Shown here piece by piece: positions 1 to 6,648 of a stretch of DNA of 64,000 nt. The notes beneath the pieces were generated by a model. The model searched no databases, was not told the DNA's origin, and saw nothing but the letters and a program-made list of their open reading frames with translations. Numbering within the stretch: position 1 is the first letter of the stretch; every line of letters starts with the position of its first letter. A program made the translations under genes and the position numbers. The DNA lies in NCBI RefSeq assembly GCF_000585375.1, contig NZ_KK073874.1, positions 7,160,894 to 7,224,893 of the forward strand, written 5' to 3'. Source of the stretch: Cryptosporangium arvum DSM 44712. Its GTDB lineage: Bacteria > Actinomycetota > Actinomycetes > Mycobacteriales > Cryptosporangiaceae.

Positions 1-79
1 CGTCGGGCGCTGCGGTGGTCTTCGCTGGGCTGGACGCTGTGGTTGTCGCCTCGGGGTCGGGGCCTGATGGGCTGGTCAT
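1..79 (-). CDS. N-terminal fragment of a gene coupled to the ImuA'-like gene, probably ImuB (Y-family polymerase-like)
   Basis: An ATG on the minus strand at 77-79 overlaps the TGA stop of the ImuA'-like gene (ATGA). The frame stays open to the window edge. The 26 visible residues begin MTSPSGPDPEATTT and are Pro/Thr/Ala-rich, so no domain can be seen. In actinobacteria the gene after the RecA-like ImuA' protein is normally imuB, the catalytically degenerate Y-family polymerase that bridges DnaE2 and the sliding clamp. That assignment is inferred from context only. If correct, the protein has a disordered N-terminal extension, since ImuB proteins usually start close to the polymerase core. 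Confidence 0.45.
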   Translation of the reverse strand, partial: MTSPSGPDPEATTTASSPAKTTAAPD

Positions 80-1449
80 CTCGCCTCCGGGGCTGCTCGG
101 AGGGCCGACCTGGGCTTCCGCGCCGAGGGCTGGGGCAACGCGGAGGCGGGCATCAGGCCGGGCAGGTCAGGCAGCACCGCCCGGATTCGCACTGCCGGGG
201 CCCGACGCTCCGCACCCGATCGCTCGGCCGCGGCACCTGAGCGCCGTTCGACGGCAGCACTCGACCGGCGCTCAACGGCAGCACCCGGCCGCCGCTCAAC
301 GGCAACACCTGGCCGCCGCTCAGCCGCAGCACCCGATCGCCGGTCGGCCGCAACGCCCGGCTGATGCTCGGCGGCGGCACCCGATCGGCGCTCAACGGCA
401 GCACCCGGCTGCCGAGTGGCAGCAGCTGATTGTTGGGCGGCAGGGCCTAGGGCGACTGGCCCCAATGCGCCCGGCTCCAGCACGACGGACCCCAGGGCGG
501 CCGGCTCCAGGACAGCCCGCTCCTGAACAGCTGGCCCTGGTGCGGCGGGATTCAAGGCCACAGGCTCCAGGGCCACCAGCCCTGAGACGGTGGGATTCAA
601 AGCGGCGGATTCCAGCGCGACAGGCTCCAGCGCGACAGGCTCCAGCGCCACCGGCTCCAGCGCCACCGGCTCCAGGGCGGCTTGGTCTGGGGCGGCGGGT
701 CGCAAGGGGGTGGGTGCGGGGAGGTGGGGATGGGTGAGCGGTGTCCGGTTCGGTTGAGGGGCATCCAGCGGGACCGGGTGGAGGGGGCGAACTGGAGTAG
801 TGGGGTGGAAGGGGGCTATCCGGCCTTCGGGGGTGGGGAGCAGGACCACTACGTGGCGGGGGCGGGATGCGCTGCCTCGGCCCTCGGCGATGACGGTTAC
901 CCGGCGTTGGCGCAGGCGTCCGTCGCCGCGGCCGGCGCCTTGCCAGAGTGCGTCGGTGAGGGAGAGCCGCAGGTCGGCGCTCGGCCAGGATCCGATTCCG
1001 ACCAGCACCGCGCCGCGCTGTCGTGCCCTTGCCGTGAGGCGGCGTACCTCGGCCAGCCCGAGGCCGCGGGGGTCGCCGACGACGACCAGGTCGAATCCGT
1101 CGAGCAGTGCGCCGACCACTCCGGCCGGGTCGGGGCCGGGGTCGCGCACCAGCGCCAGCCGGTCGACGGTGACGCCCGCCTCGGCCGCTGCCACCACGCC
1201 GAAGGCCGGTAGGCCCACCACCGCGCACCATGATCCGGCGCTCGAGACCGCGGCCAGGAGTGCGACCAGCAGGCTGCTCGAACGACCGACCGCAAGGGTG
1301 GAGCCTCGCGCCAGGCCTCCGGCCGGGAACAGGGTCAGTAGCGGCTCCGGTGCCGGTAGCAGGTCGGTGACCTGGTGCTTCTCGGTCAGCGTCGAGGCTG
1401 AGCGGACCGTCTCGACCAACGCGGCTCGCGCCGCTGCTTTCCCGCTCAC
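76..1449 (-). CDS. ImuA'-like RecA-fold protein with long repetitive C-terminal tail
   Basis: A 457-residue protein from a GTG start preceded by an AGGTGAGG-type ribosome site. Residues 1 to about 215 resemble the degenerate RecA-like protein encoded just before imuB in actinobacteria (ImuA' type): hydrophobic strands at about 57-72 and 117-126 (LVVVGDPRG) and a second core at 146-152. No intact Walker A motif is seen where a P-loop would lie (around GGLARGST). Residues about 256-340 are five-residue ALEPV-type repeats, and about 345-415 are eight-residue repeats of the RRPGAAVE kind, so nearly half the protein is low complexity. It overlaps the next gene by ATGA. The inferred role is as an accessory factor for mutagenic lesion bypass with ImuB and DnaE2. 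The family call rests on fold-like features and context, so it is moderate. Confidence 0.6.
   Translation of the reverse strand: MSGKAAARAALVETVRSASTLTEKHQVTDLLPAPEPLLTLFPAGGLARGSTLAVGRSSSLLVALLAAVSSAGSWCAVVGLPAFGVVAAAEAGVTVDRLALVRDPGPDPAGVVGALLDGFDLVVVGDPRGLGLAEVRRLTARARQRGAVLVGIGSWPSADLRLSLTDALWQGAGRGDGRLRQRRVTVIAEGRGSASRPRHVVVLLPTPEGRIAPFHPTTPVRPLHPVPLDAPQPNRTPLTHPHLPAPTPLRPAAPDQAALEPVALEPVALEPVALEPVALESAALNPTVSGLVALEPVALNPAAPGPAVQERAVLEPAALGSVVLEPGALGPVALGPAAQQSAAATRQPGAAVERRSGAAAEHQPGVAADRRSGAAAERRPGVAVERRPGAAVERRSSAAVERRSGAAAERSGAERRAPAVRIRAVLPDLPGLMPASALPQPSARKPRSALRAAPEAR
241..417. repeat. 24-bp degenerate tandem repeat inside the ImuA'-like gene
   Basis: About seven imperfect copies of a 24-bp unit related to CTCAACGGCAGCACCCGGCC lie in the 3' part of the gene. 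On the minus strand they encode the eight-residue RRPGAAVE-type repeats. The unit is a multiple of three, so copy-number change would keep the frame. Confidence 0.8.
611..685. repeat. 15-bp tandem repeat inside the ImuA'-like gene
   Basis: About five near-identical copies of a 15-bp unit (CTCCAGCGCGACAGG or CTCCAGCGCCACCGG). On the minus strand they encode successive five-residue PVALE repeats at about residues 256-280. More diverged copies continue toward position 440. Confidence 0.85.
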
Positions 1450-2004
1450 CGCGCCTCACCTGCCGCCGGCAGGCTGCCTTCACCCGCCGTGGACGGGCGA
1501 CCGCCGACCACCGCAGCCGACCCGTCGCCAGCTGCTGCGACCGGCCCGTCGCCGACTGCTATGACCGGCTCGCGGCCGGTCGCCGCGGATGACTCGATGC
1601 CCTCCGCCGTGGCCGGCTCGCTGCCGACCGTTCGGCTTGGCCGTGCTCTCCCCCGTCGCGCATCCATCGCGCCACGCCCCCTGATTTTCGCCCGCACTGC
1701 CACCCGGAACCGGCGACGCCGGTAGATCACACACGCCCGGCCGGCGAACCGGCCACGCTTCACCTCACGCCGAGCACCTGACCGGCCGAAACGGCCGGAA
1801 CAACCACACCGACCGGAACAACCACCGGCCTGCCTCACGCCGAGCCCCGACCCACCAGGCCGCCACCGCCACCGCCACCGCCAGCAAAGCCCGCCCAGCC
1901 GCCAGACCAACCGATCCGATCCGATCCGGCCAACCGATCCGGCCCGGCCCGGCCGATCCGGCCCAACCGATCCCGGCCCGGGCCAGCCCGGCCAACCCAC
2001 TCGA
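1450..2004. other. Gene-free, low-complexity intergenic region
   Basis: No convincing gene is seen in these 555 bases. Open frames exist on both strands, but their products are Gly/Arg/Trp or Pro/Ala low complexity with no domain. The stretch holds a small hairpin at 1782-1798 (CCGGCCG, AAA, CGGCCGG), two copies of CCTCACGCCGAGC near 1764 and 1832, and a run of short GATCCG/GGCC repeats at about 1914-1990. It separates the HEPN gene from the ImuA'-like gene, so an internal promoter is possible, but no clear -10/-35 pair was found. Confidence 0.6.
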
Positions 2005-2514
2005 TCAACCCGCGCGGGGAGTTTCGGCGGGTAGCTGGGCCGGGAGGCCGAGCATGGTTTCGACGAGCGTGCAGAAGCGCTCGGCGTCGCGGAGCAGATC
2101 GTCGGCCTCCCGGGCGGTGGCCGCCCGGGGCAGACCGGCCTCCGCCGCCGCTCTCTTCACCGCCGCGGTGGCGAAGAACGCCGCCCACTCGCCCATCTCG
2201 GGGGCCACCTGGGTGAGCAGCACCCACACGCTCGTCGGCCGCGAGCGCGGGCGGCGCACGCCGGGGGGCAGCGGCCGGGCCCGGACCGCGAGCACCGCCG
2301 CGGCGGCACGCAGCGCGGCCAGATGCGCGGTGGCGTAGCGGGGGCCCGGCGACCGGGTGACCGCGGCCTCGCCCAGCCCGTGGCGGGCCAGCGCGAGCAG
2401 TTCACGCGGCGTGCGGTGCGGTAGCGCGGAGGCCGGCACCGAGACCGGCATGCCGCCGGACGCGTCGCCGACGGACGTCGAAGGCCGGATCGTGACGGGC
2501 ACCGGGTAAGTCAT
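2005..2514 (-). CDS. SAV_6107-type HEPN domain protein
   Basis: A 169-residue, mainly alpha-helical protein. The ATG overlaps the stop of the upstream DUF6504 gene (ATGA), which fixes the start and shows translational coupling. The segment from about residue 30 (PRELLALARHGL) through an RYATAH helix to FFATAAVKRAA matches the small actinobacterial HEPN family named after SAV_6107. HEPN folds are often RNases or nucleotidyltransferase partners, but no activity is established here. RYATAH has the spacing of an R-x4-H motif, though whether it is catalytic is uncertain. Members of this family recur next to DUF6504, imuB and dnaE2 genes, so the context suggests a link with SOS lesion bypass. Confidence 0.75.
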   Translation of the reverse strand: MTYPVPVTIRPSTSVGDASGGMPVSVPASALPHRTPRELLALARHGLGEAAVTRSPGPRYATAHLAALRAAAAVLAVRARPLPPGVRRPRSRPTSVWVLLTQVAPEMGEWAAFFATAAVKRAAAEAGLPRAATAREADDLLRDAERFCTLVETMLGLPAQLPAETPRAG

Positions 2515-2945
2515 TGTTCCTCCTCGAGGATGTCGATCCTGGTGACGGTCCAGCGACCGACCGCCCAGTCGAAGCTCAGGTCGAAAACACCAGCGAGCAC
2601 AGGCGCCGGCCGGGACGAACTCTTGTCGGCCTCGGATGTCCCCGCGGGCGGGACACCGCCCGCGAAGGAAGGACTGGCGCTCACCCGCCAGACCTCCTCG
2701 TCGGGAGGGCTGGTGGCAGCGGGTTCGGAGAGCTCCGCGGCGCGAGAAGCGCGCCGGGCCTCCAGCTCGTCCACCACGGGAGGGGAAGGAGGGAGATCGG
2801 GGCGCGTGGAGGAGCCGGGCCGGGGCGAGTGGCGAATGCGGTGATGCGTGAGCACCACCCGCACCCGATGGATCTGACCGTTCCAGTGGAACTCCACCGG
2901 AGCGTCCGCGCCGGCACCACGCCGGACCTCGGTCTCCTCGGCCAC
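2511..2945 (-). CDS. DUF6504 family protein of the mutasome neighbourhood
   Basis: A 144-residue protein. The GTG start is chosen because it follows a strong GGAGGGG ribosome site by about five bases. The N-terminal part (about residues 14-35, VEFHWNGQIHRVRVVLTHHRI) and the C-terminal part (about 115-140, FDLSFDWAVGRWTVTRI) look like a split beta-rich domain, with a Pro/Ser/Ala-rich linker between. This matches DUF6504, a small actinobacterial family usually found beside ImuB/DnaE2-type genes. Its biochemical role is unknown. The stop overlaps the HEPN start, and the gene lies about 205 bases downstream of a LexA-type box on the same strand. DNA-damage induction is therefore likely but inferred. 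Confidence 0.72.
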   Translation of the reverse strand: MAEETEVRRGAGADAPVEFHWNGQIHRVRVVLTHHRIRHSPRPGSSTRPDLPPSPPVVDELEARRASRAAELSEPAATSPPDEEVWRVSASPSFAGGVPPAGTSEADKSSSRPAPVLAGVFDLSFDWAVGRWTVTRIDILEEEQ

Positions 2946-3022
2946 CGTTTCCCCTCCACGCCGTACCGCCGGGTGCCCGGACGGACACCCGGCGCCGCTC
3001 GAGGGGAAGGTGAGCGGCGCCA

Positions 3023-3064
3023 CCGGCTCGGGCAAGGCGCTTCCCCTCGCCTTACCCGAGCCGG
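3023..3064. repeat. Perfect stem-loop upstream of DUF6504
   Basis: The arms CCGGCTCGGG (3023-3032) and CCCGAGCCGG (3055-3064) are perfectly complementary. An inner AAGGCG/CGCCTT pairing continues the stem around an eight-base loop. It lies between the LexA-type box and the DUF6504 start, so it would sit in that gene's 5' leader. It could be an attenuator, or a terminator facing either direction; no T-tract follows. Confidence 0.7.
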
Positions 3065-3070
3065 CAGCAG

Positions 3071-3113
3071 CCTTCACCGCCGGTAGAAAGGGTCGATCCA
3101 CCGGCGGTGAAGG
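3071..3113. repeat. Second perfect stem-loop upstream of DUF6504
   Basis: A 13-bp perfect inverted repeat, CCTTCACCGCCGG (3071-3083) and CCGGCGGTGAAGG (3101-3113), with a 17-base loop. It is adjacent to the previous stem-loop, so the two would form consecutive hairpins in the leader between the SOS box and the DUF6504 gene. Confidence 0.7.
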
Positions 3114-3150
3114 TTTCCGGAGGCGGGTCGCGACACCCGCTCCGGAGTGT

Positions 3151-3166
3151 TCGAACGAGTGTTCGA
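3151..3166. promoter_or_regulatory. LexA-type SOS box
   Basis: TCGAACGAGTGTTCGA matches the actinobacterial LexA operator consensus TCGAAC-N4-GTTCGA at all twelve fixed positions. It sits between the divergent DUF6504 gene (minus, start 2945) and the transaminase gene (plus, start 3246). The first is a mutasome-type gene, so the box most likely controls that operon. It is the only full match noticed in this window. It is also embedded in a 12-bp direct repeat, GAGTGTTCGAAC, at 3145-3168. Confidence 0.8.
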
Positions 3167-3245
3167 ACCAGCCCAACAGTAACCCCGCCCCGGGCCCGGC
3201 GCAACGCCGACGCACGGCTCGGCCACCACGAGGCAAGATGTTCGG

Positions 3246-4604
3246 GTGAACACCGTTGATCGCCGCCGTCTCGCCGACCTGACCAGCCGCGAAAGAGCCC
3301 GGTTCGCCGAAGCGAACCCGCGCTCGGCGTCGGCCTACGCAAACGGAAAGCACCTGTTCGGCCGCACCCCGATGACCTGGATGGCCAAGCAGGCGGGTGG
3401 GTTTCCGCTCTATCTCGCGACCGCCCGCGGGGCACGCGTCACCGACCTGGACGGGCACACGTACATCGACCTCTGCCTGGGCGACACCGGCGCGATGGCC
3501 GGGCACTCCCCCGCCCCGGTCGTCGAGGCCATCCGACGTCGTACGGCCGACGAGGGCGGTCTCACCGCCATGCTGCCCACCGAGGACGCCGAGTGGGTCG
3601 GCGCGGAGCTGACCCGGCGCTTCGGGCTCCCGCAGTGGAGCCTGTCGCTGACCGCCACCGACGCCAACCGGTGGGCGATCCGGCTCGCCCGCGCCATCAC
3701 CGGCAAGCCGAAGATCCTGGTCAACAGCTACTGCTACCACGGCAGCGTCGACGAGTCGCTGATCGTGGTCGGGGCGGACAAAGAGCCCCAGGTCCGCGAC
3801 GGCAACGTCGGTGCCCCGGTCGACACCCGGGTCACCAGCCGGGTCGCCGAGTACAACGACCTCGAGGGCCTGGAAACCGAACTCGCCCACGGCGACGTCG
3901 CCGCGGTGCTGATGGAGCCCGCGCTCACCAACATCGGCATCGTGCTGCCCGAGCCCGGCTATCTGCACGGAGTCCGCGAGATGACCCGCAGGTACGGCGT
4001 GCTCCTGATCAACGACGAGACCCACACGTTCTCGGCCGGCCCCGGCGGCTGCACGAAAGAATGGAACCTCGAGCCCGACGTCCTGACGATCGGCAAAGCG
4101 ATCGGCGGCGGCGTGCCGGTCGGCGCCTACGGCCTCTCGGAAGAGGTCAGCGCACGCATCGAGGCCCGCACGGACCTCGACCTCATCGACATGGGCGGCG
4201 TCGGCGGCACGCTGGCCGGCAACGCGCTCTCGGTCGCGGCCACCAGGGCCACCCTCGAGCACGTCCTCACCGACGAAGCGTTCGAGACGATGACCGAACT
4301 CGGCACCCACCTGGCCGAGGGCACCCGGAAAGCCATCGAGGGCATGCCCTGGTCGGTCACCCAGCTCGGCGCCCGCGCCGAGTACCGCTTCGCCGACCCC
4401 GCCCCGCGCACCGGCGGCGAATCACACGCGGCCGGCGACGCCGAACTCGACGACTACCTGCACGTCTACGCGGCCAACCGAGGCATCCTGCTCACGCCGT
4501 TCCACAACATGGCCCTGGTCTGCCCGGACACCACCCGAGCCGATGTCGACGCCCACCTCGAGGTGCTGCACCAAGCGGTCACGGAGCTAGAACAGAACGG
4601 TTGA
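3246..4604 (+). CDS. Class III PLP aminotransferase, glutamate-1-semialdehyde aminomutase-like
   Basis: A 452-residue fold-type I PLP enzyme. The N-terminal segment with a VTDLDGHTYIDLCLGDTGAM-type motif (about 60-80) and the Schiff-base lysine motif TIGKAIGGGVPVG (about 280-290) are typical of the class III family, closest in style to glutamate-1-semialdehyde 2,1-aminomutase. The PLP-binding NDET motif is present at about residue 258. It is unlikely to be the haem-pathway HemL, since no tetrapyrrole gene is near and the N-terminus carries about 35 extra residues. The substrate is unknown; it is probably an amino acid or amine transaminase. The GTG start has only a weak ribosome site. Its 3' end overlaps the convergent GNAT gene by 18 bases. 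The SOS box lies 80 bases upstream, but relevance to this gene is doubtful. Confidence 0.8.
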   Translation: MNTVDRRRLADLTSRERARFAEANPRSASAYANGKHLFGRTPMTWMAKQAGGFPLYLATARGARVTDLDGHTYIDLCLGDTGAMAGHSPAPVVEAIRRRTADEGGLTAMLPTEDAEWVGAELTRRFGLPQWSLSLTATDANRWAIRLARAITGKPKILVNSYCYHGSVDESLIVVGADKEPQVRDGNVGAPVDTRVTSRVAEYNDLEGLETELAHGDVAAVLMEPALTNIGIVLPEPGYLHGVREMTRRYGVLLINDETHTFSAGPGGCTKEWNLEPDVLTIGKAIGGGVPVGAYGLSEEVSARIEARTDLDLIDMGGVGGTLAGNALSVAATRATLEHVLTDEAFETMTELGTHLAEGTRKAIEGMPWSVTQLGARAEYRFADPAPRTGGESHAAGDAELDDYLHVYAANRGILLTPFHNMALVCPDTTRADVDAHLEVLHQAVTELEQNG

Positions 4605-5429
4605 GAACGTTCCCACCTGGGTGAAGCCGCAGCGCTGATAAACGGTGCGGGCGGCGTGGTTGAAGTCGTTCACGTAGAGGCTGACGATCGGCGCGACGGT
4701 GCGGAGCGTGTCGGCGACCACGGCGGCCATCGCCGCCGTGGCCACGCCCGTCCCGCGCCGCTCCGGGTGCACCCAGACGCCCTGTACCTGCGCGACCCGG
4801 TTGCTGACCGCGCCGAGCTCGGCCTTGAACACGACCTGGCCGTTCTCCATCCGCAGATACGAACGCCCGGCTCGCACCAGCTCGGCGACCCGGGCGCGGT
4901 AGGCGACCCCGCCGTCCCACTCGACCGGCGAGACGCCGATCTCCTCGGTGTACATCGCGATGCACGCCGGCAGCAGCGCGTCGAAGTCACGCATGTCCGC
5001 GCGCCGCACCCACGGGTCCGGCGCGACCGGAGGCAGCGCCGACGTGGCCAGCAGCGGCTGGGAGGCACGCACCTCGCGGGGCTGGCCCCAATCGCCCACC
5101 AGGTCGTCCCAGAGCGGCAGAACCGCTTTGTCGGGCCCGACGATCGACGAGCAGACCCGCCCCTGCTCCCGGGCGACGTCGGCGAACGCCCGTACCGCGT
5201 CGGGTTCGGTGGTCAGCGGCACCAGGTTCGCGCCGGAGTAGCACAGGCCCTCGACGGCACCGTCGAGCGTGTAGCCCCAGAGCTGGGCTCCGAGCCTCCA
5301 GCGCGAGATCCCGTGCGTGCCGATCCGGGCCGCGACGAACACGCTCGCGACCGGATCAGCGTCCAACAGCTCTTCGACCTCGGTGCGGTCGGCGTCCCGC
5401 AGGACCCGGACCGGCCTGGTCGTCAGCAC
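4587..5429 (-). CDS. GNAT family N-acetyltransferase with DUF4081 N-terminal domain
   Basis: A 280-residue protein from a GTG start. The N-terminal half (about 1-135) is the DUF4081-type region found before GNAT domains in actinobacteria. The C-terminal half carries the GNAT acetyl-CoA site: GVWVHPERRGTGVATAAMAA (about 220-240, the R/Q-x-x-G-x-G/A motif) and YVNDFNHAARTVYQRCGF near the end. This gene is conserved directly after ispG in many actinobacteria, as Rv2867c is in Mycobacterium. Its acyl acceptor is not known. It follows ispG on the same strand with a 52-base gap, so it is likely the last gene of the dxr-rseP-ispG unit. Confidence 0.88.
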   Translation of the reverse strand: MLTTRPVRVLRDADRTEVEELLDADPVASVFVAARIGTHGISRWRLGAQLWGYTLDGAVEGLCYSGANLVPLTTEPDAVRAFADVAREQGRVCSSIVGPDKAVLPLWDDLVGDWGQPREVRASQPLLATSALPPVAPDPWVRRADMRDFDALLPACIAMYTEEIGVSPVEWDGGVAYRARVAELVRAGRSYLRMENGQVVFKAELGAVSNRVAQVQGVWVHPERRGTGVATAAMAAVVADTLRTVAPIVSLYVNDFNHAARTVYQRCGFTQVGTFSTVLF

Positions 5430-5481
5430 GAGGCACTCACGCTTCCCAGCCTGCCACGGACTACCCGGCAGGCCAAAGCTC

Positions 5482-6648
<1,167 letters not shown>

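Follow-up and report, generated by a model that had tools for sequence, protein, structure and literature searches.

DnaE2 mutasomes make damage-induced mutations and are implicated in drug resistance in relatives of the bacterium considered here. The ImuA'-ImuB-DnaE2 mutasome of the Mycobacterium tuberculosis type is described as a LexA-regulated cassette, and the DnaE2 motif is given as SRDF[H/R] (PMC3919608). A further component, the ImuB-C domain, was named by Aravind et al. in 2013 (PMC3765255); standalone ImuB-C proteins beside DnaE2 were reported by Timinskas and Venclovas (PMC6511836; PMC12926913), in whose modelling the domain forms a new beta barrel touching the PHP domain of DnaE2 (PMC12926913). 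The word HEPN is absent from the main text of each of four papers, PMC3765255, PMC6511836, PMC12926913 and PMC3919608. The operator through which LexA acts is given for S. venezuelae as tCGAAC-N4-GNNCGa (PMC9380542).

Here we analyse a locus in Cryptosporangium arvum DSM 44712, contained in a 64-kb stretch of DNA hereafter called the window, together with its counterparts across the class. The evidence makes it highly probable that this is a LexA-controlled SOS mutagenesis operon, DUF6504(ImuB-C)-HEPN-imuA'-imuB-dnaE2, controlled at two levels. Two small proteins, widespread but with roles little known, become testable members of the mutasome system, in hosts that are non-pathogenic laboratory organisms.

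The LexA box and the genes of the operon

The features on which the argument turns are the following.

3151..3166, no strand assigned: LexA (SOS) box TCGAACGAGTGTTCGA, a pattern match, identical in 4/4 genus members
2511..2945, minus strand: DUF6504 gene, predicted standalone ImuB-C domain protein of 144 aa (PF20114, 25.4 bits against a cut-off of 24.2)
2005..2514, minus strand: HEPN_SAV_6107 family protein of 169 aa (PF18726, E 1.1e-35, 122.6 bits against a cut-off of 27.2)
76..1449, minus strand: imuA' with a long repetitive C-terminal tail (NF058630, E 1.5e-51, residues 40-191)
1..79 (start about 79), minus strand: 5' end of imuB, the rest lying beyond the window, with dnaE2 next (3598-5973 and 318-3596 of L021, the fetched stretch of this locus; IMS domain)
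3246..4604, plus strand: divergent PRK07046-type transaminase, a possible second target

Within the window, TCGAACGAGTGTTCGA at 3151-3166 is the sole perfect match to the actinobacterial LexA operator pattern TCGAACNNNNGTTCGA, and 11 sites match with up to two mismatches against 3.3 expected. The whole genome of 9.196 Mb holds five perfect sites, and none when the pattern is read backwards. The box is intergenic, lying 205 bp from the GTG of DUF6504 (2945, minus strand), behind which HEPN comes next, and 79 bp from the GTG of the divergent transaminase (3246). A first-pass annotation of the window, which had proposed a perfect LexA box upstream of the DUF6504 and HEPN genes, is confirmed on both counts, although the setting that it described left out the nearby transaminase.

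Some further features of these sites were observed. The box is included in a 12-bp tandem repeat (GAGTGTTCGAAC x2, 3145-3168), of which two GTTCGAAC cores are present in 4/4 genus members and the full 12-bp second copy in two only. The four other perfect boxes of the genome (L016, L017, L019 and L020, each at 1501-1516; neighbours named by eye) comprise one flanked on one side by a LacI-type regulator and on the other by a gene for a membrane protein, one 18 bp ahead of a dehydrogenase-like ORF, one beside the end of a UvrD/PcrA-like gene and, in L019, one just upstream of a radical SAM-like ORF; a radical SAM gene is also under LexA control in S. venezuelae (PMC9380542, Table 1). The genome's best LexA-like gene (L321) is preceded by boxes with two mismatches only. 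Counts of GAACNNNNGTTC alone were rejected as uninformative, since codon use may explain much of the difference between 182 occurrences and 13 for the reversed core.

The DUF6504 and HEPN_SAV_6107 genes overlap at ATGA, and we infer that all five genes, from DUF6504 through HEPN, imuA' and imuB to dnaE2, are co-transcribed. The mutasome set is complete, and the polymerase, which ends in SRDFR, is DnaE2 and not DnaE1; the earlier call of an ImuA'-like gene coupled to a probable imuB was right, given the NF058630 match, the IMS domain and the dnaE2 that follows. Two of the proteins have long tails: that at the C-terminus of ImuA' (window 76-900) is of low complexity with repeats such as ALEPVALEPVA, and that at the N-terminus of ImuB is long and repetitive, with AKTSAAPDA repeats. 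Between HEPN and imuA' lies a GC-rich, repeat-laden gap of 555 bp (1450-2004) without a convincing gene, in which no LexA-like site with up to two mismatches was found.

Judged by profile matching, DUF6504 is the already named ImuB-C domain. PF20114 scores over its cut-off at the C-terminus of ImuB in three of five proteobacterial proteins (one of the others falling below the cut-off and one giving no match; E for the Microvirga ImuB was 0.045), and it is this position that identifies the family with the domain of Aravind et al. Hence, the statement of the first-pass annotation that DUF6504 and HEPN are of unknown function does not wholly hold for its DUF6504 half. In the genome scan the window's DUF6504 reached 22.7 bits, below the cut-off; PF20114 had no match in three actinobacterial ImuB proteins; and when DUF6504 and actinobacterial ImuB-C were compared as profiles, no significant match resulted (hhalign probability 0.7%). 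A structural model of the DUF6504 protein of L198, made from seven sequences, is all-beta, with a mean pLDDT of 69 and about 92 over the first half of the core, and found no PDB match better than E 3.5. A literature search for DUF6504 found no paper. As in the model published for the ImuB C-terminus (PMC12926913), the likely docking partner of the standalone ImuB-C is the DnaE2 polymerase.

Conservation of the box across Actinomycetes

PF18726 (HEPN) was found in 197 of 296 genomes of the class and PF20114 (DUF6504) in 121. To the window's own locus we added 80 stretches, most of them the single representative of a genus, taken from those listed matches that scored best; weak HEPN relatives are therefore under-sampled among the resulting 81. 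Profiles built from these stretches found HEPN in 77 and DUF6504 in 50, DUF6504 lying directly ahead of HEPN in 46 of the 77 HEPN loci, which represent 72 genera and 35 families. A perfect box stands within 1 kb upstream at 64 of the 77 (60 genera, 32 families) and a box with one mismatch at 11 more, making 75/77; the two remaining loci, L058 and L073, the latter from g36, which we take to be Streptomyces, have two-mismatch sites. The 179 other permutations of the half-sites gave no site in the same 76,988 upstream bases, and 1-kb tiles elsewhere in the same loci gave 2/768. Such footprinting supports the proposal, made from the window alone, that DUF6504 and HEPN_SAV_6107 belong to the SOS response. 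A search for boxes at DUF6504 genes of other actinobacteria, suggested at the same time, bore this out at the four fetched DUF6504 loci without HEPN, whose best boxes, near -100, have 0, 1, 1 and 2 mismatches; the idea that DUF6504 without HEPN has no box was accordingly rejected.

Additional loci show how far the box extends. Among 20 further loci of one family, six have a perfect box, seven one mismatch, five two mismatches and two worse. A named set of 80 loci comprised 11 from outside Streptomyces, with perfect boxes at 9/11 and one mismatch at 1/11, and 69 from Streptomyces, with perfect boxes at 0/69, one mismatch at one and two mismatches at 36, these being mostly CCGAAC-N4-GATCGA near -240; less than 1 kb upstream was available for three of the Streptomyces loci, and the set is not wholly independent, L153 and L213 being apparently the same contigs as L137 and L100. 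At best, therefore, the Streptomyces loci appear to carry a degenerate box. L213, labelled as a Spirochaetaceae MAG (8,044 bases), has the length and the box of L100, an actinomycete contig from another collection, and its public label may be wrong.

The genes beside HEPN vary between the loci. HEPN and a dnaE2-type polymerase share one cluster in 50 of the 77 loci. The order HEPN-imuA'-imuB-dnaE2 occurs in eight, with DUF6504 only in the four of the window's genus; in 38, HEPN is followed by a DnaE2B-like dnaE, so labelled by inference from about 32% identity to the window's DnaE2, and 37 of these 38 have DUF6504; the other four contacts with dnaE2 consist of a dnaE2 piece in one locus and dnaE2 just ahead of HEPN in three. 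No polymerase adjoins HEPN in 24 loci, and three end at a contig edge. That the dnaE beside HEPN might be the replicative DnaE1 was considered and rejected, its identity to the window's DnaE1 being about 28%. A box with at most one mismatch accompanies imuA'-imuB-dnaE2 in 8/8 loci, DnaE2B-like dnaE in 38/38, the dnaE2 piece in 1/1, dnaE2 before HEPN in 3/3, loci without polymerase in 22/24 and those at a contig edge in 3/3; hence, the box goes with HEPN and DUF6504 and not with one polymerase.

This pattern also bears on which gene the window's box serves. It is very improbable that the box acts for the transaminase alone and that the DUF6504 operon has a promoter of its own: the transaminase is the nearer gene and is divergent in 4/4 genus members, but outside the genus the box stays with DUF6504 and HEPN, and a tblastn search of 81 stretches found the transaminase in 0/77 of those from outside the genus. 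An operator of palindromic form, set between divergent genes in a synteny kept throughout the genus, could be shared by both, which we consider possible but on balance unlikely, as no link between a PRK07046-type transaminase and DNA repair is known to us.

HEPN_SAV_6107 itself is present in 114 of 121 genomes of one family. In L263, from a genome that we take to be Corynebacterium, the HEPN gene has metF/GNAT on one side and DUF3040-mraZ-mraW on the other (genes named by eye), the position of cg2381 in C. glutamicum. PF18726 is present in C. glutamicum, and gene order suggests that cg2381 is probably its HEPN_SAV_6107. This conserved hypothetical gene was induced by ciprofloxacin (M-value 3.86) and is named among the LexA-regulon genes of Jochmann 2009 (PMC5055667).

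A candidate structured leader RNA

Between the box and DUF6504 lies a second group of features.

2946..3150, minus strand: candidate structured 5' leader of the operon (fold, genus conservation)
3071..3113, minus strand: leader hairpin H1, with UCGACCC in the loop (fold; covariation of model R2)
3023..3064, minus strand: leader hairpin H2, apical GAGGGGAAGC, with GGGGAA at 3041-3046 (fold, covariation, model R1)
2991..3021, minus strand: leader hairpin H3, whose loop ACCUUCCCCUC complements both the H2 loop and the Shine-Dalgarno region
2951..2957, minus strand: Shine-Dalgarno-like GGAGGGG of DUF6504 (sequence)

The 205 bases from the box to the start codon are unusually conserved in an alignment of the four genus members, the leader being 90-92% identical in the three others, and the predicted fold of 2930-3150 has an energy of -158.3 kcal/mol (z -8.5), matched by none of 200 shuffles. 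Structured leaders elsewhere follow one plan, in which H1 (UCGACCC loop) is followed by H2 (GUGGGGAAGC or GAGGGGAAGC tip), H3 (CCUUCCCC loop) and the Shine-Dalgarno. The loops of H2 and H3 are complementary (GGGGAA/UUCCCC), and the calculated duplex energy of the H3 loop is -16.4 kcal/mol with the H2 loop and -17.9 kcal/mol with the Shine-Dalgarno region. Across the other loci and the window, z is below -3 in 29 of 69 leaders (median -2.6). Of 77 leaders, 43 contain CGACCC and 18 have GGGGAAG with CUUCCCC further on. Among 75 leaders, a hairpin of at least seven pairs holds GACCC in its loop in 34 and CGACC in 41, compared with 0 to 15 for the other 18 permutations.

The predicted stems are supported by covariation above that of 500/500 shuffles. 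For H2-H3, model R1 was built from 17 sequences picked for holding both loops, leaving out L093 (a MAFFT misplacement) and L125 (a near-duplicate). Over H2, H3 and the kissing pairs the covariation score was 0.321, compared with 0.155 in shuffles (0/500 reached it) and with no more than 0.141 after sliding; both sides vary in 17 of the 29 pairs. The stems of H2 and H3 were not selected for in this picking; the six kissing pairs, which form in 17/17 sequences and hardly vary, partly were, so that kissing is consistent with the data and not proven by them. For H1, model R2 kept 27 of 37 candidates, entry requiring at least 6/7 inner pairs, and all kept loops but one hold YUCGACCC. Here covariation was 0.617 against 0.237 in shuffles (0/500 as high, n=27) and at most 0.304 when slid; the loop and inner pairs partly reflect selection, whereas the outer seven pairs, each changed on both sides in 5 to 9 sequences, and the genome-wide specificity do not. 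The number of R2 pairs changed on both sides showed no excess (14 against 13.4 in shuffles, 268/500), and H1 did not emerge when RNAalifold was run on a plain MAFFT alignment.

In their stronger matches, both models are specific for the locus. Over 296 genomes and at E up to 0.01, R1 matched once in each of 17; all 17/17 matches fall upstream of HEPN or DUF6504 at a distance of no more than 0.7 kb, and four come from loci outside the model; it also matches the leaders of the named Kineosporia (L198) and Kineosporiaceae (L166) loci. With exact GGGGAAG in 29/77 leaders, H2-H3 is thus present in a minority of loci. The best 28 R2 matches (E up to 0.0021) are all upstream of DUF6504 or HEPN, 27 by coordinates and the last by fetched sequence, and 17 come from loci outside the model; at least five of the next 22 (E above 0.0021) are at the locus, these weaker matches lying mostly elsewhere, as chance would give. 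The window's own H1 is matched weakly by R2 (17.7 bits, E 5.7), and its genome has no R2 match at E 0.1. The R2 match checked in G324 lacks a perfect LexA box within its 3.6 kb.

Some leaders carry two H1 copies in tandem (L076 2316-2352 and 2377-2413; G273 C35 858-955). Seven (L071, L090, L107, L114, L117, L119 and L121) have a long H2-like hairpin tipped GAGGGGAAGC and no exact CUUCCCC, perhaps a variant leader. No Rfam 15 family exceeded its gathering threshold in window 1400-3400 or L075 9500-10000, where only chance matches below threshold were seen, and none of the literature matches listed concerned this leader RNA, judged by title and the start of the abstract.

It is rather doubtful that the hairpins act as DNA, or as transcription terminators or attenuators, and not as a translational switch. 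Very stable GC-rich stems beside an operator might be expected of such elements, and attenuation also fits a leader; against this, the loops are conserved as well as the stems, no U run follows H2 and H3 in the window, and the sequence is directional, R1 scoring 74.7 bits (2985-3068, E 1.7e-9) on the mRNA strand of the window, whose sequence is in the model as L021, and 22.8 bits on the opposite strand.

Proposed control and comparison with described systems

We propose that LexA, presumably bound at the footprint at 3151-3166, would repress the promoter, which would open when DNA damage leads to RecA-triggered cleavage of LexA. The transcript would then begin with the folded leader of about 200 nt, in which the H3 loop (CUUCCCC) may form a kissing contact with the H2 loop (GGGGAA) or, alternatively, base-pair with the DUF6504 Shine-Dalgarno; given these alternative partners, the leader probably gates translation. 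A protein or a ligand is likely to bind at the H1 loop (UCGACCC), and HEPN or ImuB-C may bind the leader. As CUUCCCC resembles any anti-Shine-Dalgarno and fits almost any Shine-Dalgarno, the switch would be weakly specific.

The HEPN protein probably either joins the DnaE2 complex as a small partner or is the leader's own RNA binder, in autoregulation. Its structural model has five helices and a core pLDDT of about 98, and its two best matches in the PDB, both HEPN proteins, have a probability of 1.00 and weak E-values of 0.09 and 0.2. Since many RNases belong to the HEPN superfamily (PMC3710099), and an R-x4-H pattern (R59, H64), comparable with the R-x4-6-H of catalytic HEPN RNases, is nearly invariant, the protein might instead be an SOS-induced RNase or toxin-like effector outside the mutasome. 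We judge this unlikely, because the SAV_6107 motif is given as not conserved (PMC3710099), the R-x4-H sits at the start of the second helix in the model, and a protein near-universal in one family is unlike a mobile toxin.

The role of a partner or RNA binder can be extended to a wider reading, offered tentatively and as somewhat short of probable: SOS mutagenesis in actinobacteria would be under double control, by LexA and by an undescribed H1/H2-H3 leader gating translation of ImuB-C-HEPN and the mutasome, and HEPN_SAV_6107, as a core SOS protein in most Actinomycetes, would bind the leader or the DnaE2 complex and may have been overlooked through its lack in Mycobacterium. With a structured RNA beneath its LexA operator, the cell would have an unusual second means of controlling when its mutation rate rises: damage could set off the switch, which would nevertheless be restrained until the arrival of a second signal, such as free HEPN or ImuB-C or an RNA ligand.

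Like the candidate structured bacterial RNAs of PMC2864571, this leader is conserved and has covarying stems and conserved loops; it differs in belonging to no Rfam 15 family at threshold and in lying under a LexA operator. DUF6504 resembles the ImuB-C domain (PMC3765255) in its place at the ImuB C-terminus, its predicted all-beta fold and its want of a close PDB match, and departs from it in the profile comparison with actinobacterial ImuB-C. The mutasome of the M. tuberculosis type likewise unites imuA' (NF058630), imuB (IMS) and dnaE2 in one set, to which the window's locus adds a standalone ImuB-C and HEPN in front, and a structured leader. HEPN was found in 0/17 of the g9 genomes listed, which we take to be Mycobacterium, and this difference may explain why it went unnoticed. 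Closest in the placing of a standalone ImuB-C by a second DnaE, as in 37/38 of our DnaE2B-like loci, are the DnaE2B-[ImuB-C] and DnaE2B-PolY-[ImuB-C]-RecA systems of Actinobacteria (PMC12926913), in the main text of which HEPN is not mentioned; in contrast to these, the window's genus combines a standalone ImuB-C with a complete ImuB.
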